Below are positions 21,286 through 64,000 of a stretch of DNA of 64,000 nucleotides, piece after piece. The stretch comes from Polytrichum commune (lineage: Eukaryota; Streptophyta; Polytrichopsida; Polytrichales; Polytrichaceae), in NCBI GenBank assembly GCA_950295325.1, contig OX485805.1, forward strand, positions 38,739,501 through 38,803,500, given 5' to 3'. The position numbers and the translations under genes are program-made. Position 1 is the first letter of the stretch, and each line of letters opens with the position of its first letter. The notes beneath the pieces were generated by a model, which made no database searches, was not told where the DNA came from, and saw only the letters and a list, made by a program, of their open reading frames with translations.

Positions 21286-23112
21286 TTACTTTCAATATTA
21301 GGTTCAATAAATCGAGTAGTTTTGATTAATTTGCTTGAGATAGTTTCATAATATTACTAAGTTGTGAAGGCTATGGTATTCATCAATAAATTATCCCCGT
21401 AGCATATGGATAATATTCTCCAAATTCTTTGACATTCTACAAACAAACACTCTTTCAAAGACCAGAGTTCTTCTTCTTTGAATTAATCACATCATTTTAG
21501 AGGCGTGTTCAATATGATAGCTTTGGTCCCTACTTGTCCCAACTCATCCGAATCAGTCATATTCAACTGTCAACTGGCAATGACATGGTGGGGTAATCAC
21601 ATGATGGGTAGTAGTGACATGTTGGGCAACAACATCGTGGGGCATATTTGGTAGCGCATGTTTAGAAAGAGAACAATGGTGGGACTTTGAGTCATGTTTT
21701 GTTGTGCTTGCTATCACTATAAAGTGTGAAACTTAGTGAATCTTATTGAAGAAGAACTAACCAAAGCACTTTAGGCCCTTGTAAAAGGTAAAAGCCCAAG
21801 CCTAGATGGGTTGATGGCAAAATTCTTTCAATCTTGCTGAAGCTTCATGAGTGACAACTTCACAAGGATGGTAAACGAATCACTAGCGAGGGGCTGACTT
21901 CCAAACATGGTAATGAGAGGACAAATTGCACTACTATTCAAAGAAGGGGACCGCTCGAGGTTAACTAATTGGCGACCAATCACGCTACTCAACACCACCT
22001 ATAAGATCTTCGCCAAAGCCCTACAACGACGACTCCAACCATTGTTAGTAGAGGTAATGAATAGTGATCAAACTGCCTTTCTACCAGTTTTATTCATTCT
22101 AAACAACATTCTACTCACACATGAATCAATTCAATGGGTGAAGGAGTTGCATCAAGACTCTATTTTCCCCAAACTTGACTTCAGCAAAGCCTATGATAGA
22201 GTTGATTGGGCCTTTATGTTCCAAGTGATGGAGAAACTAAGAATGCCAAACACATTTATTTAAATGATTTAAATGTTATTTCATGACACAATGGTCTTTG
22301 TCAATATCAACAACCAAACAACATAGCCTTTCAGACTGCATAGAGGAGTTCACCATGGTTGCCTTCTTGTGCCCTATTTGTTCATTATCACGGTACATGC
22401 ATTAAATGCAGCAATAAAACATTCAATGATAATGGGTAACCTCAAAGGCATTACCCTTCCACAAAACAACTCCCAACATATCATTAGCCAATACGTTGAT
22501 GATACATCCTTCACGGTTAAGGTAGAAGAAACCAGCGTGGACCACCTTGTTGGAATCATCCACAAGTTTGGTAATGCCTCGGGACTTGAGATAAATTGGC
22601 ATAAAAGTGTGGCGTATTGGTGCGGTTGAGGATGTCCGCCAAGATGGGTGGGAAAATACCAATGAAAATGGGCAACCACTGGGGACCTATCAAAACTTCT
22701 AGGCACCCCATTTGGTCTTAAATTGGAATTGCAGGACGTAGACCAAATTTTGGTCAATAGGATCAAGGGCAAGTTCAAATATTGGAGCTCCACGAACTTG
22801 TCACTTGCGGGGCGCACCCTCATTGTTAACCAAGTCTTGATGTCATCCCTCTGGTAATTTGTTGCGGTGTGGGCCGAGTCAAAGAAAATTCTAGGGAGGA
22901 TTAGAGTTTTACTCTGCAACTACCCCTGGTTTGAAACAGAAAATGCGGCCATAGCACGTGTTAATTGAGATGATTGCACAATACTTAAGAAAGTAGGAGG
23001 CCTTAGTCTTACCTCGCCAAAGAACGCCATGGAAGCCCTCATGAGTAAATGGGTTATCCAGGCCTTACTTCCTGGCAAATAGAATCTTCAAATTATCCTG
23101 AGGCATCGCATC

Positions 23113-52156: not shown

Positions 52157-52849
52157 TTACTGACAGCCGTCCCTAGTGCAAGCACCAGTTGCGGAGGAAT
52201 TGAGTTCCTCCTCCCGCTGCTTTGCGGACAATTCGAAAGCTTCAAGAAACGATTCGGGAGGTTGAGCACCGGAGATCTGGTAGCGACCGTCCACGATAAA
52301 ATGCGGAACTCCACTCACTCCTCGATGATGTTTACGCTCCTCTTGCAACACCTCCTTTAGACCAGCCTGTGGGTCCTCGAGAAATTCCTTCGCCCCGCTG
52401 ACTCCGGCTTTCTCCGCTGCCGCTAGCAGCACATTCTTGTCACCGATGTACTTCTCTTGCGTGAAGAAGTTCACAAAAAGCTCCTCGACGACCGCATTTT
52501 GCTTGTCCATACCCTGGCGGCCAGCGAACTCGATCAATCTGTGACTGTCGACAGTGCTGCCTGTCTCGCCGCCAAGAGAGAACTTGTATCCTAAATTCGC
52601 AAACGCACCCCCAATGCGATCAACGATCATTCGTGTCCGTGCCTCTCCAAACTTATTCGCGTAGTACTGCTTCTTGTTCACGCCAATTGGCGATGCCTCA
52701 GGGTTCAAGAAGAACGGGTGCCATCGGACCTCGACGTCATACCGGTCCTTGCTCGCCGCTATGGCTTGCTCCAGGTGCTTCTTCCCAACAAAGCACCAGG
52801 GGCAAACTGTGTCGGACGTGACATCAACGCGAATCACTTTCTTCGCCAT
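52157..52849 (-). CDS. DsbA/FrnE-like thioredoxin-fold oxidoreductase, intronless
   Basis: This uninterrupted frame encodes 230 residues of the DsbA (FrnE-type) family, a thioredoxin fold with a helical insertion that catalyses thiol-disulfide exchange. The N-terminal strand leads to the active-site CPWC at residues 16-19 (DVTSDTVCPWCFVGKK). The helical domain follows (KQYYANKFGE, DSHRLIEFAGRQG, EELFVNFFTQEKYIGD). The cis-proline loop GVSGVPHFIVDGRYQISGAQ closes the fold, and a polar tail ends in CTRDGCQ. No signal peptide is visible, so a cytosolic location is likely. The chosen ATG gives the compact family length of 210-230 residues; in-frame codons further upstream lack an ATG. Eukaryotic members resemble the bacterial FrnE group. 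The physiological substrate is unknown. Confidence 0.93.
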   Translation of the reverse strand: MAKKVIRVDVTSDTVCPWCFVGKKHLEQAIAASKDRYDVEVRWHPFFLNPEASPIGVNKKQYYANKFGEARTRMIVDRIGGAFANLGYKFSLGGETGSTVDSHRLIEFAGRQGMDKQNAVVEELFVNFFTQEKYIGDKNVLLAAAEKAGVSGAKEFLEDPQAGLKEVLQEERKHHRGVSGVPHFIVDGRYQISGAQPPESFLEAFELSAKQREEELNSSATGACTRDGCQ

Positions 52850-53508
52850 CGCCACCACTCTCGCCACGACGGACAACCTTTAGACTGAAAGGAAGAAAAT
52901 GCTTAACACTACTACGAAACAACACCACGTGTGGCGTAGTAATAAAGTCTCCGAGCGCTACAAAAAATTCAAGAACGCCACAGATGGCTACAAATAAAAT
53001 TTTCCGAACTCCAAAACACACCCCTACTTACAACATTCCTGCAACAGAAGCCGAAATTCCCTGTGTACATTCAACTCCCTCAATTCTCAAAATCGATCAT
53101 CTACCAAATCTTTCGCAGATACTTCAAGTCCTCTGCCAGAAACTAACAACATACACTATGTACACAATCCAGCTATATATACACAGTACAATTAGGGTCC
53201 CGGCACCGCTGTGAAGATTCGAGTAACAAGTGGCGATGGAACATACTGGAAACATCGCATACGAGAGGATTGGTGACGTGGCAAGATTTGAACCCTTGGA
53301 TCTCAAGATCGACGGTCAGGGAGTCGTCTTCCTCGATTGCTTGGGGGCCATGAACTGAGGACAGCCGAGGGCTTCCGCGGAAGCACTCATCAGCCCGGTT
53401 TGAATGAGGTGGGGATGAACTCTGTCCATATTAGTGCCGCTTTTGGTATAGGACGTATGGATGATTTTTGTCCGTGGAAGGTTCTGCTGGTGCTTCCTTA
53501 CAGTATCC
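52850..53508 (-). promoter_or_regulatory. Upstream region of the DsbA-like gene
   Basis: No other gene is present. On the minus strand GTGTATATATAGC at about 53,173-53,184 is a good TATA-box match, roughly 325 bp before the start codon. That would imply a leader of about 290 nt. This is a pattern match only. Confidence 0.35.
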
Positions 53509-54324: not shown

Positions 54325-55520
54325 TCCTTCGCCATTTTCTGTTTCACAATAACCAAGCCTCTCATTTCTCCAACTTCCCACCCCATTGTCCAATTTCTCC
54401 TCCAAGTACATAGATTGTCCATTTGAGCCAAAGCTTGAGAGAGAGGGGAAAAAAAGAAGAAAAAGAAAAGAAAAAGAAAAAAACCCTCCATTTTTAAACA
54501 TGTAAGTATAAAGTACCTCAACCTACTTATTCTAAGGTATCAACAAGGACTTTTTTTAATAAAACAAGAAGTGGATGTTGAAGTGGTTGAATTCATGTAC
54601 TTAATTGACACTAGTAAAGCCTCTCTTGTTTCAAAAAATTCAAATGACAATAAATATTCCTTGGTCACATGGCTCATACAACATTGCTCACCCATTGCTC
54701 AAGGGAGTTGGTTTGTTATTGCATGAGACCGACGAGATATAAGTGTCGATGCTAGAATCTATGAGTTTTCAAACTAAATGTGTACCTGAGGCTTGCTTTC
54801 AAATAGAAAGAGAACATAAGATCGATGACCCTTGAGTAATGTTATGTAAGTATAAACTTGTGATTACACTAATGTTGATGACGAGTCCTTTTGAAGAAGG
54901 TTGCTCTCTTTCATGTGTACCCCTGACCACCTTCAATTCTCAAGCATCGAAATATTATGATAATTGACCTACTTGTTGGCCATCTTCCGTTTTCAAGCAT
55001 ATAAGCCATTCGATGTCTAATCTAGTCGATACAAGCAAGCTTTAGTTCAAGTTCATCTGCAAGTGACACGTCTTATCCATGTTCACATGGAGAAATGATT
55101 CAATGACCGATAGGATTTACTGTTCTTCTCGCTTGTGTGTTGCAATGCACATTCTCAAACATGGCCAACTATATTTGGTTTAAGAAGCAATGGATGAGTG
55201 GTGGCAGGAACGGAGGAGATTAGGGGAGGAGGGTTACATCGGTCAAATCCGACGGTCGAGAAAGCACATGCAACGTGGCCTCAAATAGATAGATAGAAAC
55301 TCCGGTCCCAATTTAAGGGGCCGGCGTGAATGAAGTGTTCGTTCGTATTGTCAAATGACCCAATGCCTGCCAGACAAGAGGAAATTTGGACAGTACTACT
55401 CTCCCCTTTCGAGGATGGACACTATAGTAACCGGAAGACAAATAAGAGTAGCCCACCGTAGTTGTTTAGCAAGTAATTACGTTTGTGTTATAGTATAAGT
55501 TGTGGTTTGTTGTGTTGGTG
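54325..55520. other. Intergenic DNA, no gene
   Basis: No coding region is recognised. A purine-rich GAAAAAAAAGAAG-type tract lies near 54,445-54,485. Confidence 0.5.
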
Positions 55521-55524
55521 GTCG

Positions 55525-55740
55525 CCAAGTCATGTTTCCTCGGTTGGTTGAGGAAGGATGTTTGTATTACACTTAGACGGTCCGGGTTCGATTCCCGTTG
55601 AGTCCGTCTGATCGTTTAGTGTGTTATACATGACTTGGTGCTGCTAGTGATTTATAGGCAGGAAAATTGTATCAACCAACCGGCTCCTACCCATCTTCTT
55701 GAGCTATTGGTGTATATATTCTTCAATAAATAATGGTCAT
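55525..55740 (+). mobile_element. tRNA-related SINE-like sequence
   Basis: GGTTCGATTCC at 55585-55595 is a consensus RNA polymerase III B box inside a CGGG/CCCG stem. TTTCCTCGGTTGGTTGAGGAAGG upstream, split here as TTTCCTCGGTTGG and TTGAGGAAGG, resembles a tRNA D-arm with A box about 45 nt before it. A matching acceptor stem is not visible, so this is not a functional tRNA gene. A tRNA-derived SINE head followed by an unrelated body to the AATAAATAATGG stretch is the best reading. Its boundaries are approximate. Confidence 0.6.
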
Positions 55741-55762
55741 CATTATGATCCCTTCTCTTATT

Positions 55763-56489
55763 CTATTGGTATTGCTTGGTTGTTTTCGATACGTCTTTTA
55801 TGTAGAAGGATTGAACTAGCATATTGTATGGCAAATTGGCAATAGTGTTTATTTCTTTGAATGTATGTTTTACAGAATTTTCAGGTAGTTCAAATGTTTG
55901 TTCAAGTTGTTTCATTGACGGGGCGTACGTGGTTCCTCTAGCTTCAGCCGTAATGACTATAAGTGGATCTATTTTCCAGCCTTGCTGAGTGATGTCATTA
56001 ATTAGTGGTTGATATTTTTGAATTTTATTGTTAGTTGTATCATGTGGGAATCTGTCATTTGTGTACGTATGTGAATTCAATAAATTATACCGTGAGGTTG
56101 TCTGTTAGATGTGGTGGTGGGGTACTTTGGTGTGGGAGTTCTTTAATACACAGAAGGTCGGGTTTGAATCGTGTGTTGCAGTGACATCTTTGTTGTTCAC
56201 ATGTACATGGTAGGAGCCATGTGGGGACTGTATTCTCTTGTGGGTTGTTGTTGAATGTCCCTACATTCATAAGGATGTAGCATCTTGATTTTTGCGATGA
56301 TAGAATTAGTTTTCTTAGTTCCCATACTGCTTTGTTATGTCTTTTGGTTCTTAAAGCATGTATATGGTGTTGGTTGCATTTTAACAGTACATGTAGCCAT
56401 GTATCTGCATCAGAGGAGTTGCAGATTGGGCATGTGATAGATGAGAATCTTTCTATGCCAAAAAATAGTTGTTTTCTAACATTGCCCAT
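55763..56489 (-). pseudogene. LINE C-terminal region: Cys/His cluster and restriction-like (PD-(D/E)XK-like) domain
   Basis: The upstream frame has CPICNSSDADTWLHVLLKC followed by HHIHALRTKRHNKAVWELRK, then a second Cys patch (CTCEQQRCHC) leading into RFKPDLLCI. After a stop (TVQ-like codon changed to TAA near 56,085) and a frame change the sequence continues FIEFTY, NDRFPHDTTNNKIQKYQPLI, then GWKIDPLIVITAEARGTTY. The order K/R-PD, E-hydrophobic-T, then KY matches restriction-like endonucleases of R2-type and Dualen-type LINEs. Domain identity is inference from motif order. Confidence 0.65.
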
Positions 56490-56709
56490 GTATTGTCCAG
56501 TTCGGAATTTTAGTATGCATGTTTTTGTGAATATGATATTGCAGGGTTAGACCAGAAATTGTTGGATATTTCGTTATCTATATCAGGGTTCATTGTCCAT
56601 TTGCTAATGTTGGAGAATTGTTCTGCCATGGTTTTTAGGTTGTTATCTCTGTTATGTTTAGTGATATATGTTTCAAGGCATCTGACAGGGCCTTTGTCAG
56701 GTCGCTTAT

Positions 56710-57260
56710 TTAGTCCAGGCCATGTGTCTTTTTGGAAATAGTATGGTGTAGTGTGTGCGTATTCGTATGCTTTGGCAACGAATCCATTTTTTTTTTAGTG
56801 CCCTGTTTTGCTAACTGGTCTGCTTGCTCATTCCCGTCAATGTTTGTATGTGTTTTTACCTTATATATTGTAGTGGATTGTGTTCGGCTTTTTAGCATTT
56901 CTACCATAGATGTTAATATGGTTGTATCAACATGGTTGTTATGGTGGGTAGGGTGTTTTATTTGTATGTTAAGTACATATAGACAATTGAGGCAATCCGT
57001 GAATATGTGTGCTGGTTCATTTGTGTATTTGGTAGTAATTAATCTGAGTGTTTTATGTATGGCCATTAGTTCGGCCCTAAAGCTGGTTTGTAGGCCAGAC
57101 AGTCTTTTTGATATACGTATTTCTGCTTTTGTTGGGTTGTAAATTCCGTAGCCAACTTTTTCTTTCTTCCAATGCCCGTCATTATCTTTTATGGGTGGGA
57201 TAAACGAACCATATGTGTAGTAGCTGTATTGTGGCGGGAATTTTAATGTAGTGTTTATTT
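56710..57260 (-). pseudogene. LINE RNase H domain, catalytic Asp lost
   Basis: The RNase H layout is clear: SYYTYGSF, then FRAELMAIHKTLRL (catalytic Glu), HIFTDCLNCLYVL (catalytic Asp) and KVKTHTNIDGNEQADQLAK (final Asp with the NEQAD motif). The first motif is normally YTDGS. Here the Asp codon is replaced by a Tyr codon at 57211-57213, so the enzyme would be inactive even without the other damage. This domain lies far downstream of the reverse transcriptase. Confidence 0.8.
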
Positions 57261-57749
57261 CATAATTTGGTAACGGTGGTGTATTTGTGGTTGACGGGTT
57301 GATATGAGGTGGATAGAATATTTTATTCCATTTAGCGTTTTTGTTTACCGGTGTGTTGTGGGATGTGAGTGGGGCCTTTTGTATGTGGTATTATATTATT
57401 TGTAGATTTTTTATTGTTGTTTTAATTGTGTCTATTTGGTTGAATGTGCCGATGTTGTGGTTTGGTGGTGGATGCAAAAGATGTGTATTGCTAATGGTTC
57501 TATCCGAGGTTTGTTTATGTTTTTGGGGGTTGTTGGTTCATCATATGTGATGGTATCTGCAGTGAAATGGGCTAGGACATGTGTGTCAGGGAATGGTCCG
57601 GTGTGTGGTGAGTAATTTAGGTACCAATTAATGTTCGGTGTGACTAGTAATGTGATGGTGTTTGGGTCATGTTTAGCTGCTAATCTTGCCTAGTGTATTG
57701 CTTGCTGGGTCATTTCTTCATTATGTGGGTGGTCATACCCAATTTCACT

Positions 57750-58995
57750 TCATTTATATTGAAAGGCGGTGCCTAGTGATCCAAAAATTTTGTCTCTTGC
57801 AAATGGGGAGTAGAATTTTGTAATATGTGTAAAACATGTTACTGGTGAGGAGAAATATGAGTGTGAGATGTTGAATGTTTTTATGATGAAATCAAAGAGA
57901 TTTTGGGGGAGAGTGTGTAGTGATGTGTTTAGAGGGTTTTTTTTCAGTATTTTAGTGTTATATCTTTGGTAGAGCCATACTACTTCGGTTTTAAATGATT
58001 GTGGGGGAGGTACTAGATCGTGTGTGTTGTATCTGTCTTTGTTGTATTGTTGCCATAGCCATTTTAGTCTGGTGGTTGGGATGGTGATGAGGTGTCTCCC
58101 GGTGTCTTCATATATATGTGTTAATTCGTTTTGTGTATGTATAGTGTTTTCTACAGTGACAATGATTTTTTTTGGGTTGCATTCTATTACTAATATTTGG
58201 GTGTGTGGCATTATTGTAGGTGGTGGTATGAATCTTGGATCTTTGGCTTGTGTGGGGGCTAGATGTGTATTTACGATGTTATTATAATAATTGTGTTGAT
58301 GTCGTGTGTAATATTCTTTTAGTAATTTAATGTTGTGTTCAATTACTGGGGGTTGGTTAAATGGGAAGAATTTACATTGTGGCAGCCATTTGTGATATGT
58401 TGTGTTGTTTTGGAGTGACCATTGGCATAGGTATTTGTTGAATATTTTATTTATTTTTCGTTTCGTTTGATTTATAATTTAGTATGATGTGTATGGGAAA
58501 TATGAGTGGGTTATTTTTTATGTTGGAGGGTGGGTTGGGTTGTTGGGGTTGTTGTGGTAGCGGTGGTAGTGGTGGGTGTAAGGGATTTTCCTGCATTCTG
58601 GGTGTTAGTTCTCTGTTGTTTAATATGTATTTTGTTCTAAATGTGCGGGCTTGTGGGTGCCTATTACATGGGTTTGAGCAGTTTTGGTTACAACTTTCGT
58701 GGCAAAAAAGTTGTTCCGCTATATGTAGTGCATTTTTTTCTAATTTTGTCGGTGTTTTATAATAAGTTTGAAAGTCTTTTGGCGACATTAAGTTTGTGCC
58801 ATTGGGGAGGGAGATGTGTTTTACCTTTTGTATGTTGTGAGTTAGGAGTTTATGGAGTAGTTTGAGAGATAACTCGGTGTTTAGCTGTGGTAGTACAGTT
58901 GTGGCTTGTGTTCTCCATTCTTGTTCTAGTTCTGTCATATGTAGTTGGAAGTTTGCTTCTATATTTTTAAGGTGAGCCCCTCCCTCCTTTTTCAT
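57750..58995 (-). pseudogene. LINE linker region between RT and RNase H
   Basis: Two long open segments (58447-58995 and 57750-58211) lie between the reverse transcriptase and RNase H. The first has a Cys patch, CHESCNQNCSNPC, followed by a Pro-rich stretch. The second reads RLKWLWQQYNKDRYN and EVVWLYQRYNTKI, two repeated W-x-Q-Y-N blocks. I do not recognise a known domain in either. Confidence 0.55.
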
Positions 58996-59220
58996 CAGAA
59001 ATAGTGTTCGTGTCGTAGGTGATCTGATACAGTCTTGGTATTTGATTCTTTGTATATCCTCTGGCCCTCCGTGTTTGGCTAGTATATGTTATATGAGTCT
59101 TTTGTAGATTATTCATAATCTTCCGGGATCATTTAATGCGTTTCAAAGTTGTTCATTAATACATCTTAGGTAGGCATTTTTTAGTGAGAATGCTTCTAGT
59201 CCAAATAGGTCATGTGGTAG

Positions 59221-60480
59221 TCAGGTTATTATGTTTGCTATGCATTTGGGTAAGCCACAGATTACTTTTTGGATTCCAATAAATTTTTTGTCTAATTTTT
59301 TTATGGTTGGTAATGAATATGGAACTGCGTAGAAGCTGTAGGCTATATCGGCTCTAATGACGGTATCCACCATGCTTATTTTTTGTTTGAGTGTAGCTAG
59401 ACAGTTTGTTAGTTGTTTGCATTGGTCTATTATTTTGGCTAAAGTGATTTGTGTTTGGAGCTTCCACTTTAGTAAAGGTTCTAGCTGTATGCCTAAATAT
59501 ACGTAGGGTTCGTTTTGGTGTAGGATAGGTAGTGGTTGATTTATGTAGTTGATATTTTGGGCTTGGATTTTGGCTTTGAATGTTTTGGGTTTTGTTTTTG
59601 ATTTATTTGGGCATCCTGTGATAGCACATTTTGGTACTCCCAAGTCCATTCCGGCCCAATCACAGTATTTGTCCAATTTGTTTAGTTGAGTTTGTATTGA
59701 TTGGAGGTTGTTTGTGATAGCTGCTAGGTCGTCTGCGTATGCTGCCGAGCTGATTGTTAGTTTGGATGTACCAAATGTGTATCCGTTTTTTTCTCTTTTT
59801 GTAGCCATCTTAGTAGAGGTTCTAGGAATATCAGAAAGAGGTATGGGTTAAGTGTATCGCCTTGTATTGTGCCTCTTTGTATTTGTATAGGTTTTGTCTT
59901 TCCGAAGTGTTCGCCAGTGAATATGGTATTGGAGTTTGAGTAATTGTTTCCTATTAGAATCACCGCGTCTTCTGGGTATCCTAAATCTTCGTTATGGCTA
60001 ACAACCTTGCGTGGTTAAGAGAGCCGAAGGCGTTCTTGAAGTCGATATATAATAGGTATATGTCTTGGTTTGTAAATCTTACGTCTTCTAGTGCTGCTAT
60101 AAGGAGTTGAAGTTGTCTGGACGTGCTTCTTTCTACTCTGAATCCTTCTTGACTATCGTGTAGGATTTGGTGTTTCTCCCCGTATGCTGATAGTATGAAT
60201 GTTAGGGTACTTGTAAAAAAATTGTATATTGTGTTTACGAGTGCGATTGGTCGGTGGTTTGGTAGTTTTGAGGGATCTCCTTTTTTATATAGGAGTATGG
60301 TTAAGCTTATTTTCCATGACGTGGGAATTTGTTTTTTTTGTAACAGTGGGAGAAGAATAGGAAAAGTAGTTTGTGGAAGCTTTCGGGCATGTTTTTTAGA
60401 ATTGTGTTAGGGATTTTATCAGGGCCGGGTGTTTTGTTGTTTGCTAGGTTTTTAAGGCAGATGTCGTATGTTTATCTGTC
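59221..60480 (-). pseudogene. LINE reverse transcriptase domain
   Basis: Reverse-transcriptase motifs are read in sense order: NNKTPGPDKIPNTILKNMP, then RPIALVNTIYNFF, DSQEGFRVERSTSRQLQLL, YLLYIDFKNAFGSLNHARLL (catalytic Asp), QRGTIQGDTLNPYLF and the active-site AAYADDLAAI (Y of YADD near 59,739). GMDLGVPKCAITG then follows, with Q-x-Y-x-YLGIQLEPLLKWK-type thumb residues. A frame change separates the QRGTIQGD part from the YADD part at about 59,800. The catalytic Asp residues are still present. Confidence 0.88.
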
Positions 60481-61269
60481 GAAGTATTCATGTAGTGGAG
60501 TTTGTGGGTTCCCTCTTTTGTCATTGACAAATCCGTCAAGGTCATGCCATGGGTATTGTCTTATTCCGCAAGTACAGTATGGTATGTATTCTCGTTGATG
60601 ATAACATGTTGGTAATGTGGGTCTGTTACTGATTGATTGTTGTTTGTGGATTTCATTGGCTATGTCTACGGGGTTTGTAAGTATATTGTTGTGTTCGTCT
60701 GTAATGCAGTCAAATGGGGGTGTTTTTTGGTTTTTAAAGATTTTTATTTTTATTTTTTTTGGATTTTTTTAATATAATTGTCTGTATTTGGATATTATTT
60801 TTTTGACACATTCTTGGGTGTATTTTGTGGTAATTTTTCGAGCATGTATATTTGCGGTTTTGGCTATTTGAGCTACTATTTTTATCTATTCTTATTGATT
60901 GGGTTCTTGATTTAGGAGGGGTGGGATGACAGCTTGGGTATGGTTTTTTAACTCTTCTATTATTGGGTGTGTTGACCAGTTTGGTGAATTTTTTATGAGG
61001 TAAATTGCTTTCCTGATTATATGGTAGGTGGAAAGGTGATTTTTCCATTTCTTTTGGAGTTTTCTTGGTAGAAAGCCTCCTTGTTGTGATATTCAGTTTG
61101 TGAGATCTGGGAGAGGTGGTGCACTGCACGTGTCTTGGATTTTGTCATAATTTTTTTGTATTAGGTGGTCTAGTATTGTGCAAGATGATTGTCATTGGTC
61201 GTTTGTTATTTGGTCGTTTTTTAATGTGTTTGTAAGTTCATTTATCTGGAGTGCATTTTCTACAAAAAA

Positions 61270-62160
61270 TTATGTTTTGAATTTTTCAATATTTTCATGT
61301 GGGATAGGGTATAATAACCTTGGGGATTTATCTGTAATTGGTGGTATACAACGGGCTAGTAATGTATTTGGTGGTATATGTAGTGTTACTGGGGAGTGGT
61401 CTGAGTTAAGGTTGTAGTCATTATTTGTGGTTGAAGTATATAGGGCATTGTTGGGTATTTTAATGTAGTATCCGTCTATTAAGCTAGTTTGGTTGTAGTT
61501 AAGACCACCTTGTCTAGGATATGAGCTATTCGTAGGGATGTATATGAATTGGAGGTTGTTCATAAATGTACTCCATTCTATATCTTTTGCTTGAGGTGGT
61601 GTTGTGATGTATTCGTTTTGACGTCCTATAAGGGCTATGTCTCTATTAAAGTCTCCGCATAGAATGTGTATGTGGTTTGGGTGATTAGTGGTTTGTTGTG
61701 TTATGTTTTGTTGTATTATTGGTATAAATTTTATATCTTCTTCGTGTGACGGCATGTAGATGTGTATTATTAACCATGGTTGTAGAGGTTGGTTGTTTAG
61801 TTCTATTATTTGTAGGTACGGTGATATTGCGGCTGGAGTGGGGATTTTAGTGATGTTGCCTGGATATGCGTATATTTTATTTATGAGTGTAAGGAGTCCG
61901 CCTCTTGCAGGTGTATATGGCATTCTTTGTTGTATACATCTTGTTAATGCATGCGTATTGTTAAATATTAGTTTAAATTGTGGGAATAGATTTTGTATGT
62001 ATTTTGTGCATTTTGTTGCGGTTAGTTTGGTTTCTTGTATAGTGATAATTGTTGGGTTGTTTGGTGTATTTGATATAAGTTTGTGGAGGTTTGGTAGGGC
62101 TGTGTTTAGTGATGAAGAGTTCCATGTGATTATGTGTGTGCTGCGATTTGTTATCTGGTT
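61270..62160 (-). pseudogene. LINE APE-type endonuclease domain
   Basis: The AP-endonuclease-like nicking domain is recognisable from IITWNSSSLNTALPNL near 62,130 (N of the WN motif), IITIQETKLTATKC (catalytic Glu), IIHIYMPSHEED, ILCGDFNRDIALIG (GDFN motif), and LNSDHSPVTLHI (SDHSPV) near 61,400. Much of it, 61270-61923, is one open frame. It would nick target DNA to prime reverse transcription. Confidence 0.87.
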
Positions 62161-62223
62161 TGGCTGGGGACGTAATGTGGGTATGTTGGGTAGTGGTGGG
62201 GGATGGGAGTATTCATGTAGTGG

Positions 62224-62772
62224 CTATTTGCATTTTAGTGCTTCTGTAAGTAATTTTTCTAGTAAAAAAGGGAATTTGTCTGTCATTAGTTGTATGGTTA
62301 GTGGTGCGTTACTTTGTTTGATGAAGTTATATATTTCTTTGTGTATGGTGTTTGGTGGGTTGATAATATCTTGATTTGTTTGTAGGAATTGTGTGTATGG
62401 GTGCATTCTTATGATGTGTCTTTCGGGTGGATTTTGGAGTGAGGCCATACGCTCTAAGACTGTTGTTGTGCAATCTGGTTCTGGAGTTTGTATTAGTATG
62501 TGGTTGCATGTCTCTATTACTGGGCTAATTGTGGTAATAAGTGCATATAATATGCGTGGGGGTGGATGGTGTTGGTTTTTGTAGATGTATCTTGATAGGT
62601 ATGGATAATCTATAATTGTGTCTTGGTGTTTTGGGTGTGCTAGATTTATGATAGGGGAAAATTGTTTTGCTAGGTATTGGTATTCAGGTTGTAACTTGAT
62701 TGTGCATTCTATAAAGTACATTTTGCATTTGTTTTTGTGTGTGGATGGGTGTGTTTGTAGAATATTGGGCAT
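62224..62772 (-). pseudogene. LINE region upstream of the endonuclease (ORF1-like, unrecognised)
   Basis: A 182-residue open frame ends 60-70 bp before the endonuclease motifs and may be either the end of ORF1 or the N-terminal part of the polyprotein. It has aromatic- and Ile-rich segments (DYPYLSRYIYKNQHH) but no CCHC knuckle or other motif I can assign. Confidence 0.45.
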
Positions 62773-62789
62773 GGGTCCCAGGTTGGTTT

Positions 62790-63960
62790 CAATGTCTCCG
62801 TTGAGTAATAGTAGTAAGTGTAAGGAGAATGCGTGGATAATGGGGAGGTTTGGTCGTTCTTTGTAGGTTATGTACCATTGTTTTTTAGTATTTGTTATTT
62901 TATAGTCTGGGTTTGTTATGTGGCTTGGATGTTTAATGGTTTTTTTTTGTGTTTGTTTGGTATGTCTGGTCTTGTGTTGGTTTTTCTTTCTTATTTTAAT
63001 TTTTTGGTTTTGGGCGAGGCCGGTAGGCCGAGCCCTTTTTGGGTGGTTTTATGGATTATATGTTGTGTTATTTTGTTTTGGTGTTTTGGAAACTTCTTTG
63101 GGAGGGGTGGGGTGTTGTTGTGGTTTGTTGTTTTTTGAGTGGTGTAGGGTGTGTTTGTTTGTTTCTTTATTGTCTTTTGTGTGTTGTATGGTTTTAGTTT
63201 TTTGTATGTGTTTTTAGCTTTCCGGAGGCGTTTTTTGGTTGTGGTTAGCTTTTCCTTGTGTTTATTTGTAAGGTTTATGTTTGTTTTGTTTTTGTTTTGT
63301 ATGGTCAAAGGTATTAAGAGATGTTTTGTCTTTATTATTATTTATAATTTTGGGTGTTTGCGTTTGTTTAGGGTTTTTTGAGCCATTGTTGTTTTGTATT
63401 GGGCTATCGGTCTTATTTTGTTTTGTGTTTTGTGTGGGAGTATTGCAAAGTGTTGTATTTGTGATTTTTTGTTGTTTAGGTTTTGGTGATCTTTCTTTTG
63501 GTCTATCTTTTTTGTTTTTTTGTTGTGTGGTTATTTTACCATTGATTAATGTTATGTGATATAAGGTTAGAGTGGGAGTCTTTGGTGTTATTATAGGGTT
63601 TTTTTTTGCACATGTTTGGTTGGTTGTGTGGTGAGGGTGGTGTAGTTAGGTATTGTTGTTTGTTTTCTTATTATCTTTTGTGTTTCATATGGTTTTGGTT
63701 TTTTGTGTGTGTTTTTAGGTTTTCGGGGGCGTTTTTTTGGTTATGTTTATCTTTTCCTTGTTTTTGCTTATAAGGTTTAGGTTTGTTTTTGGTGAGGTTT
63801 TAATGTCTCCACTATGTATTACTAGTAGTTGTAGGGAGGGTGGTTGGTTTACGGGGAGATTTTCACGTTCTATGTGGTTTGGGCTTTGTTGTTTGTTATG
63901 GTTTTTTGTAGAGTTTAGGTTTGTTATATGACTTGGGTGTTTTGTGTTCCTTTGGTGTGT
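62790..63960 (-). repeat. Repeated blocks in the 5' region of the LINE
   Basis: Two blocks occur twice. One is near 63,125-63,300 and again at 63,640-63,795, with shared plus-strand GTGTTTTTAG, GGCGTTTTTTGG and TTTTCCTTG. The other is near 62,790-62,960 and again at 63,810-63,960, with shared AATGTCTCC and GGGGAG, plus TTTGTTATxTGxCTTGG. In sense order they read X', Y', Y, X, as expected if a preceding unit ends and another begins here. Confidence 0.5.
62991..63308 (-). pseudogene. LINE N-terminal basic segment (unrecognised)
   Basis: A 105-residue open frame dominated by Lys, Thr, Asn and Gln, for example NKHKEKLTTTKKRLRKAKNT. It could be a nucleic-acid-binding N-terminus or simply a translation of A+C-rich non-coding 5' DNA. 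Confidence 0.3.
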
Positions 63961-64000
63961 TTGTTTGTTGATATGTGTGGTTTTGTATTGGTGTTTTCTA

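Follow-up and report, generated by a model that had tools for sequence, protein, structure and literature searches.

Given the proposal that one minus-strand LINE in a 64,000-nucleotide stretch of Polytrichum commune DNA (GCA_950295325.1, contig OX485805.1, positions 38,739,501 to 38,803,500; referred to here as the window) encodes both an APE and a restriction-like endonuclease, we asked whether the two nucleases are truly present in a single element and, if so, to which group of LINEs that element belongs. The initial annotation read APE motifs, an RT, an RNase H, a CPIC Cys/His cluster and a terminal KPD/EFT/KY segment laid out like R2-type restriction-like endonucleases (RLE) at 55745-63310, and suggested a land-plant extension or refinement of the Dualen/RandI clade of green algae, with RNase H far downstream. 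Its observation is confirmed by our analysis. Its interpretation is supported only in part: a single element does encode an APE and an R2-type RLE, with RNase H far downstream of RT, but the grouping with Dualen/RandI is not settled.

Domain content of the element at the locus

All of the motifs named in the initial annotation are present on the minus strand, and they recur in the same order in intact copies elsewhere in the genome, which rules out chance occurrence. The interval given was too short at both ends, and the PCIF1-like and chromodomain-like parts, ORF1, the 2A-like motif and the 5′ RNA fold had been missed. The 5′ end is likely rather than certain, since a second 11-bp match, further from the tail, occurs in the same search and the 5′ RNA module of other copies was not detectable in this copy. 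The window copy itself is dead, with several frameshifts and stops in addition to the substitutions listed in the table.

Features of the LINE copy, in window coordinates; positions above 64000 lie beyond the window end
Feature	Coordinates	Strand	Observations
Part of the LINE copy within the window	55284..64000	-	5′ end likely about 5 kb beyond the window end; blastn to intact copy C1a over 55285-62799 at 79%
Probable 3′ target-site duplication (11 bp)	55273..55283	-	TGAGGCCACGT
3′ UTR	55284..55760	-	ends in CGGAGTT plus (TCTA)n tail, as in intact copies
R2-type RLE	55838..56222	-	KPD..EFT..K..KY; broken by a stop and a frameshift
CCHC knuckle	56295..56462	-	CPIC..H..C with RHN, laid out as in R2
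RNase H	56788..57252	-	PF00075, E 5.9e-13; first catalytic D changed to Y
PCIF1-like (cap methyltransferase family) domain	57537..58121	-	PF12237, E 5.7e-10; HPHN where PCIF1 has NPPF; at least two in-frame stops
Chromodomain-like region	58257..58527	-	frameshifted
Cys/His cluster after RT	58594..58734	-	
Reverse transcriptase	59368..60480	-	YIDF; YADD in 59368-59799; PF00078, 3e-6 and 1.8e-4 on its pieces, both below cut-off; broken by frameshifts and a stop
APE-type endonuclease	61348..62139	-	WN, QETK, GDFN, SDHSP; PF14529, 9.5e-7, over cut-off
2A-like motif	62731..62799	-	GDIETNLGP (GDIETNPGP in C1a)
ORF1 relative	65515-67023		35% identical over 508 aa
Likely 5′ end	near 68982		
5′ copy of the probable duplication (11 bp)	+68983-68993		in the adjoining piece

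Intact copies have one stop-to-stop ORF2 frame of 2625-2924 codons, found in five of five copies picked for long frames, on four contigs; three of these are about 99% identical to each other over 10.7-12.0 kb. ORF2 is composed, in order, of a 2A-like GDIxxNPGP motif, the APE, the RT, a Cys/His cluster, a chromodomain-like fold, a PCIF1 (cap m6Am methyltransferase)-like domain, RNase H, the CCHC knuckle and the R2-type RLE. In three whole ORF2s, Pfam RT, RNase H and PCIF1_WW were over cut-off in 3 of 3, whereas Pfam missed the APE in 2 of these 3. Three full copies measure 12.0-12.7 kb and carry ORF1, a covarying 5′ RNA fold and a (TCTA)n tail. Element hits lie on all seven large contigs.

Conservation and predicted folds of the domains

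Catalytic residues are conserved in the aligned copies. The APE N, E, Y, N, S, D and H are present in 11 of 11 (the D of GDFN in 10 of 11), the RT D and the DD of YADD in 7 of 7, and the RNase H D-E-D-H-D in 14 of 14, while the RLE D, E, K, K and Y, the C, C, H and C of the knuckle and the H of RHN are present in 17 of 17 (the P of KPD in 15 of 17). Median dN/dS values of 0.058 for RT, 0.13 for RLE, 0.136 for APE, 0.14 for the PCIF1-like domain, 0.148 for RNase H and 0.26 for the chromodomain region indicate purifying selection, although dS is often near saturation.

The RLE was not recognized by sequence: no PDB match was obtained at E<=10, and Pfam gave only single-member, non-significant matches (DUF4177, 0.13; L_protein_N, 0.14). 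Its assignment, including the PD-(D/E)XK fold, thus rests on residues and on a moderate predicted model (mean pLDDT 68). Foldseek with this model gave 6 hits at E<=0.001, all of them R2 proteins, and VIA-align placed seven R2 chains at Z 10.2-11.6, with the next row at 7.1.

The PCIF1-like domain matched PCIF1_WW (PF12237) in 15 of 15 aligned copies at E<=0.01 and in 150 of 150 scored genome hits over cut-off, drawn from 697 candidates; in this search a cellular PCIF1 gene of the host could not be told apart from element copies. The only PDB profile hits at E<=1 are PCIF1 (0.0036 and 0.03), and PCIF1 chains are the top fold rows (best Z 5.8), though this part of the model is poor (pLDDT mostly under 60; rmsd 9.3-9.4 Å, Z 3.9-5.8). 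The catalytic NPPF motif of PCIF1 is not retained, aligning instead to HPH[N/T] in 14 of 15 copies and HPPN in 1, with HPH in 17 of all 18 pieces extracted.

The chromodomain-like region was compared with the three-strand barrel plus C-terminal helix of chromodomains and with Pfam Chromo. Chromodomain chains are the best VIA-align rows for model residues 72-162, at Z 2.8-5.7 and mostly 4.7-5.7, though for VIA-align a Z under 8 may mean only a common arrangement. Pfam Chromo was below threshold (4 of 13 members, best E 0.062), with DUF6805 doing about as well (4 of 13, 0.089), a PDB search with the alignment gave none at E<=5, and Foldseek with the model spanning the chromodomain-like and PCIF1-like parts gave nothing at E<=0.001.

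Insertion sites, RNA features and host

Target-site duplications of 11-13 bp were found in 15 of 15 copies with both ends readable, against 6 of 240 mismatched pairings reaching 11 bp; 2 of the 17 copies considered were dropped because their 3′ end was not in the stretch examined. Those of two copies, C5 and C1b, were found by searching 6 kb, where a 12-bp chance match is not impossible. No Rfam family reached its gathering score in five loci (27 kb), and in a 1-kb stretch of the 5′ UTR, searched at E up to 10, the six matches (five microRNA families and one lncRNA region) were all below their gathering scores, with no ribozyme among them. ARAGORN found no tRNA in five loci, ORF1 of two families gave no Pfam match at E<=0.1, and scans of viral contigs with three of our profiles (A1, A3 and A2) found no relative. 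The host genome gave 58 chlorophyll a/b-binding matches and 4 LEAFY-type matches, and is therefore on gene content that of a green plant and very probably a land plant; LEAFY also occurs in some charophyte algae.

Proposed function and relation to known LINEs

We interpret the locus, with good confidence, as a decayed copy of an abundant, probably recently active, two-ORF non-LTR retrotransposon of a very probable land plant. In this view ORF1 would be an RNA-binding, coiled-coil protein, and ORF2, perhaps split from its N-terminal part by a 2A-like skip, would perform target-primed reverse transcription, with a nick at R|T, priming of RT on the (TCTA)n-tailed RNA, removal of the RNA by RNase H and a second-strand cut about 12 bp away. 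As both the APE and the R2-like knuckle and RLE are kept by selection, both probably act, though R|T and the duplication lengths do not tell which nuclease makes which cut. The PCIF1-like domain belongs to the methyltransferase family but lacks the NPPF motif, suggesting a pseudo-methyltransferase that binds nucleic acid or cap, for example the 5′ end of the element's own RNA, while the chromodomain-like part probably binds chromatin. The duplication lengths are observed, whereas the ORF1 function, the 2A-like skip, the activity of the nucleases and of the insertion mechanism, and the binding roles of the PCIF1-like and chromodomain-like parts are inferred from sequence and predicted models alone.

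The closest known elements are the Dualen/RandI LINEs of Chlamydomonas and relatives (PMC8226300), a label (LINE/Dualen) also used for cryptophytes (PMC12747079). APE plus RLE is what sets Dualen apart (PMC3636483; PMC4640811), RNase H is also listed for Dualen/RandI (PMC4640811), and Chlamydomonas SINEs paired with RandI end in short repeats such as (ATT)n and (CTTT)n (PMC3747384), comparable to the (TCTA)n tail here. The present element differs in its plant host with LEAFY genes and in the chromodomain-like and PCIF1-like domains between RT and RNase H. Dualen reportedly also carries a cysteine protease (Kojima and Fujiwara 2005); no Pfam peptidase was found at E<=0.5 in three ORF2s, which is weak evidence against membership given the missed APEs. 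With R2 the element shares the predicted C-terminal RLE fold and the CCHC knuckle, but it adds the APE with its catalytic residues, RNase H, ORF1 and the PCIF1-like domain, and its hits are spread over the large contigs with target-site duplications. Plant L1 likewise has APE, RT, often RNase H, and ORF1 (PMC9033089), but here an RLE is present and the tail is not (A)n. From PCIF1/CAPAM the domain differs in the lost NPPF motif and in forming part of a retrotransposon polyprotein.

Dual-endonuclease LINEs are seen as the intermediate between RLE and APE retrotransposons (PMC4640811) and were listed under green algae only in a 2015 survey table (PMC4438587), while a 2022 land-plant review names only L1 and RTE LINEs (PMC9033089); among the openly licensed papers searched, no LINE with PCIF1 or a chromodomain was listed. 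A high-copy lineage with near-identical intact copies makes the question of which nuclease cuts which strand directly testable, and a PCIF1-type domain in a retrotransposon would link cap biology to retrotransposition.

Of the alternative placements, a true member of the Dualen/RandI clade that reached or persisted in land plants and later took in the chromodomain and PCIF1-like domain is somewhat more likely than not, resting on the shared layout rather than on RT phylogeny: the RT profile scores turtle R2 best (117 bits), followed by finch R2 (106), human L1 (75) and Bombyx R2 (69), and an 11-row tree containing no Dualen reference leaves the element on its own long branch (1.79 changes per column), apart from both R2 and L1. 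A bolder possibility, which we consider unlikely but not excluded, is a new clade of dual-endonuclease LINEs in land plants that recruited a cap-methyltransferase fold as a catalytically dead cap or 5′-end reader next to a chromodomain, such that the element may hold both ends of its own RNA (5′ via the PCIF1-like domain, perhaps with the covarying 5′ fold, and 3′ via RT) on marked chromatin while the two nucleases cut the two strands about 12 bp apart. An independent dual-endonuclease lineage, either an APE LINE that captured an R2-like C-terminus or an R2-like LINE that captured an APE, is doubtful; the isolated RT branch is in its favor, but it comes from eleven rows with long branches only, and parsimony would favor one origin of the APE plus RLE layout. 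That the PCIF1-like domain is an active N6-adenosine methyltransferase modifying the element's RNA cap is improbable, for although the family match and nuclease-like purifying selection are compatible with it, the NPPF motif is replaced, and mutating this motif in PCIF1 lowers activity (PMC6318281). Capture of the extra domains once from a host gene, followed by hitch-hiking in decaying copies such as the broken window copy, is contradicted by the presence of the same domain under purifying selection in 15 of 15 aligned copies that differ by up to 45% from the first.

Domain content of the element and its intact relatives

An ORF listing and translated alignment of the window copy placed every motif named in the initial annotation on the minus strand, in the order APE, RT, RNase H, CCHC knuckle and RLE, and the observation made there is confirmed. 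Pfam scored the APE (PF14529, 9.5e-7) over cut-off, two RT pieces (3e-6 and 1.8e-4) below cut-off, RNase H at 5.9e-13, and also returned an unexpected match to PCIF1_WW (PF12237, 5.7e-10) over cut-off. The window copy is broken by several frameshifts and stops and has lost one RNase H aspartate.

Positions of the element's parts and of other features, in the window unless another sequence is named
Feature	Position	Strand
APE	61348-62139	-
RT	59368-60480	-
PCIF1_WW match (PF12237)	57753-58478	
RNase H	56788-57252	-
CCHC knuckle	56295-56462	-
RLE	55838-56222	-
2A-like motif	62731-62799	-
Second, weak 2A-like stretch	63769-63828	-
Direct repeat	62878-62959 and 63886-63967	
Decayed L1-like RT fragment	21931-22743	+
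Open frame resembling a DsbA/FrnE-type protein	52160-52879	-
5' UTR module (sequence piece L030, and 14 other copies)	L030:2590-2712	-
3' UTR, example (sequence piece L007)	L007:90-571	-
Cluster of chlorophyll a/b-binding matches (genome contig C5)	C5:1751760-1846160	

The same genome (408 Mb, 64 contigs) holds many copies of the element, with at least 150 RLE-piece hits (150 of 150 scored, from 3456 first-look candidates) and at least 150 PCIF1_WW hits over the curated cut-off (150 of 150 scored, from 697 candidates). Five copies chosen for long frames, on contigs C5, C4, C1 (two copies) and C2, have one stop-to-stop ORF2 frame of 2625, 2924, 2919, 2625 and 2625 codons, respectively. The copies on C5 and C2 and one of the two on C1 (C1b) are about 99% identical to each other over 10.7-12.0 kb, which suggests recent activity. 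An ORF1 lies upstream in another frame and overlaps the ORF2 frame slightly; two versions of it gave no Pfam match at E<=0.1. All five intact copies carry GDI[E/K]xNPGP, a 2A-like motif; GDIExNPGP is positioned roughly 280-600 codons into the stop-to-stop ORF2 frame and is broken to NLGP in the window copy. The second 2A-like stretch of the window (SGDIKTSP, E 0.052), together with a 74% direct repeat of 82 nt, hints at a duplicated leader.

Nineteen further loci were fetched, and domain pieces covered to 90% or more in one open frame were extracted. After identical and some near-identical rows were dropped, the alignments held 11 of 14 pieces for the APE, 7 of 11 for RT, 13 of 18 for the chromodomain region, 15 of 18 for the PCIF1-like domain, 14 of 21 for RNase H and 17 of 19 for the RLE, and the catalytic residues are conserved. 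Median pairwise dN/dS (Nei-Gojobori, with only pairs of 0.05<dS<2 kept) was 0.058 for RT (7 of 21 pairs), 0.130 for the RLE (25 of 55), 0.136 for the APE (23 of 28), 0.140 for the PCIF1-like domain (29 of 66), 0.148 for RNase H (35 of 55) and 0.260 for the chromodomain region with its linker (28 of 45; highest pair 0.448), though many dS values are near saturation and the pairs are not independent, so these values are indicative.

Predicted folds of the RLE, PCIF1-like and chromodomain-like regions

The RLE profile found nothing significant by sequence, but its AlphaFold model (mean pLDDT 68, with ten-residue blocks of the core at 75-92) exhibits similarity to R2 proteins, which are its only Foldseek hits at E<=0.001 (6 of 6) and the seven best rows in structural alignment with VIA (Z 10.2-11.6, rmsd 3.6-4.1 over 179-189 residues). 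The next row, a viral polymerase with a cap-snatching nuclease, reached Z 7.1.

The PCIF1-like profile hit only PCIF1 chains in the PDB at E<=1 (0.0036 and 0.03), and PF12237 is matched by 15 of 15 members of the alignment at E<=0.01. In a joint model of the chromodomain and PCIF1-like regions, which is poor overall (mean pLDDT 50.5), PCIF1 chains are the top VIA rows, colinear over residues 201-452 (Z 3.9-5.8, rmsd 9.3-9.4), and chromodomains follow over residues 72-162 (Z 2.8-5.7, most 4.7-5.7, rmsd mostly about 3). A Z under 8 may, however, reflect only a common arrangement, Foldseek gave nothing significant for this model, and Pfam Chromo reached only E 0.062, in 4 of 13 members, with DUF6805 about level. 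The NPPF motif of PCIF1 aligns to HPH[N/T] in 14 of 15 copies and to HPPN in 1 of 15; NPPF is described as characteristic of adenosine methyltransferases, and its disruption lowers PCIF1 activity (PMC6318281).

Insertion sites, termini and the 5' RNA module

Both ends were sought in 17 copies and were readable in 15, the other two being dropped because the 3' end was not in the fetched stretch. All 15 have a TSD of 11-13 bp (10 of 15 exactly 12), while the same search on 240 mismatched pairings reached 11 bp in 6 and 12 bp in 1 of these. For the C5 and C1b copies the 5' copy of the duplication had first been found by a search over 6 kb, and the flanks of these two and of the C2 copy were then cut around the place already found, so these three do not provide an independent test; for C2 the duplication sits at the edge of the alignment. 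The window copy shows a likely TSD of 11 bp. The base before the duplication is a purine in 15 of 15 (G 11, A 4), and all 15 duplications start with T, which may be shared with the tail. Tails are (TCTA)n. Three full elements measured 12.49, 11.97 and 12.70 kb, and the window copy would span about 13.7 kb.

A module of about 110 nt recurs in the 5' UTR near the 5' end (34 matches, the query's own place included), though it was not detectable in the window copy. In 15 sequences a 25-pair fold with covarying stems keeps 94.6% of cells paired (90.4 in shuffles), and 10 pairs have changes on both sides, compared with a mean of 4.6 in shuffles, of which 2 of 500 reach this number, and at most 5 in slid versions; the number of further pair types is not unusual, as 63 of 500 shuffles reach it. 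No Rfam family matches at its gathering score, and since the module lies some way inside the 5' end, it is not an obvious 5'-end ribozyme. By eye, the 3' UTR of copies holds an antisense stretch like a tRNA B box (reverse complement GGGTTCGATTCC) with an A-box-like part, but ARAGORN called no tRNA in five loci.

Placement, inferred mechanism and other features

The RT profile scored R2 of turtle at 117 bits, R2 of zebra finch at about 106, human L1 at 75 and Bombyx R2 at 69 and 65, and an 11-row tree, which contained no Dualen references, put the element copies on their own long branch. The initial annotation's interpretation is partly supported: one element carries an APE and a predicted R2-type RLE, while its proposed grouping with Dualen/RandI remains a possibility on present evidence. 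Dualen has been described as encoding both an APE and an RLE (PMC4640811, PMC3636483), with Dualen/RandI listed under green algae (PMC4438587), Dualen found in Chlamydomonas relatives (PMC8226300) and LINE/Dualen reported in cryptophytes (PMC12747079), whereas land-plant LINEs are given as L1 and RTE (PMC9033089). Literature searches linking PCIF1 or MT-A70 to retrotransposons and transposons, Dualen to transposable elements, RandI to moss, restriction-like endonucleases to land plants, and methyltransferases or chromodomains to non-LTR elements returned, among CC-licensed papers judged for the most part by listing rather than full text, none that by title or abstract describes such an element.

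The domain content, its conservation, the TSD size, the tail and the 5' fold are shown by the present analysis, while TPRT with both nucleases, a pseudo-methyltransferase that binds the cap or nucleic acid, chromatin binding and 2A skipping are inferred. Elsewhere in the window, a decayed L1-like RT fragment shows 25% identity to the element's RT (E 1e-10), and an open frame of 240 codons reads, by eye alone, like a DsbA/FrnE-type thioredoxin-fold protein. The cluster on contig C5 comprises 14 chlorophyll a/b-binding matches with equal Pfam scores.
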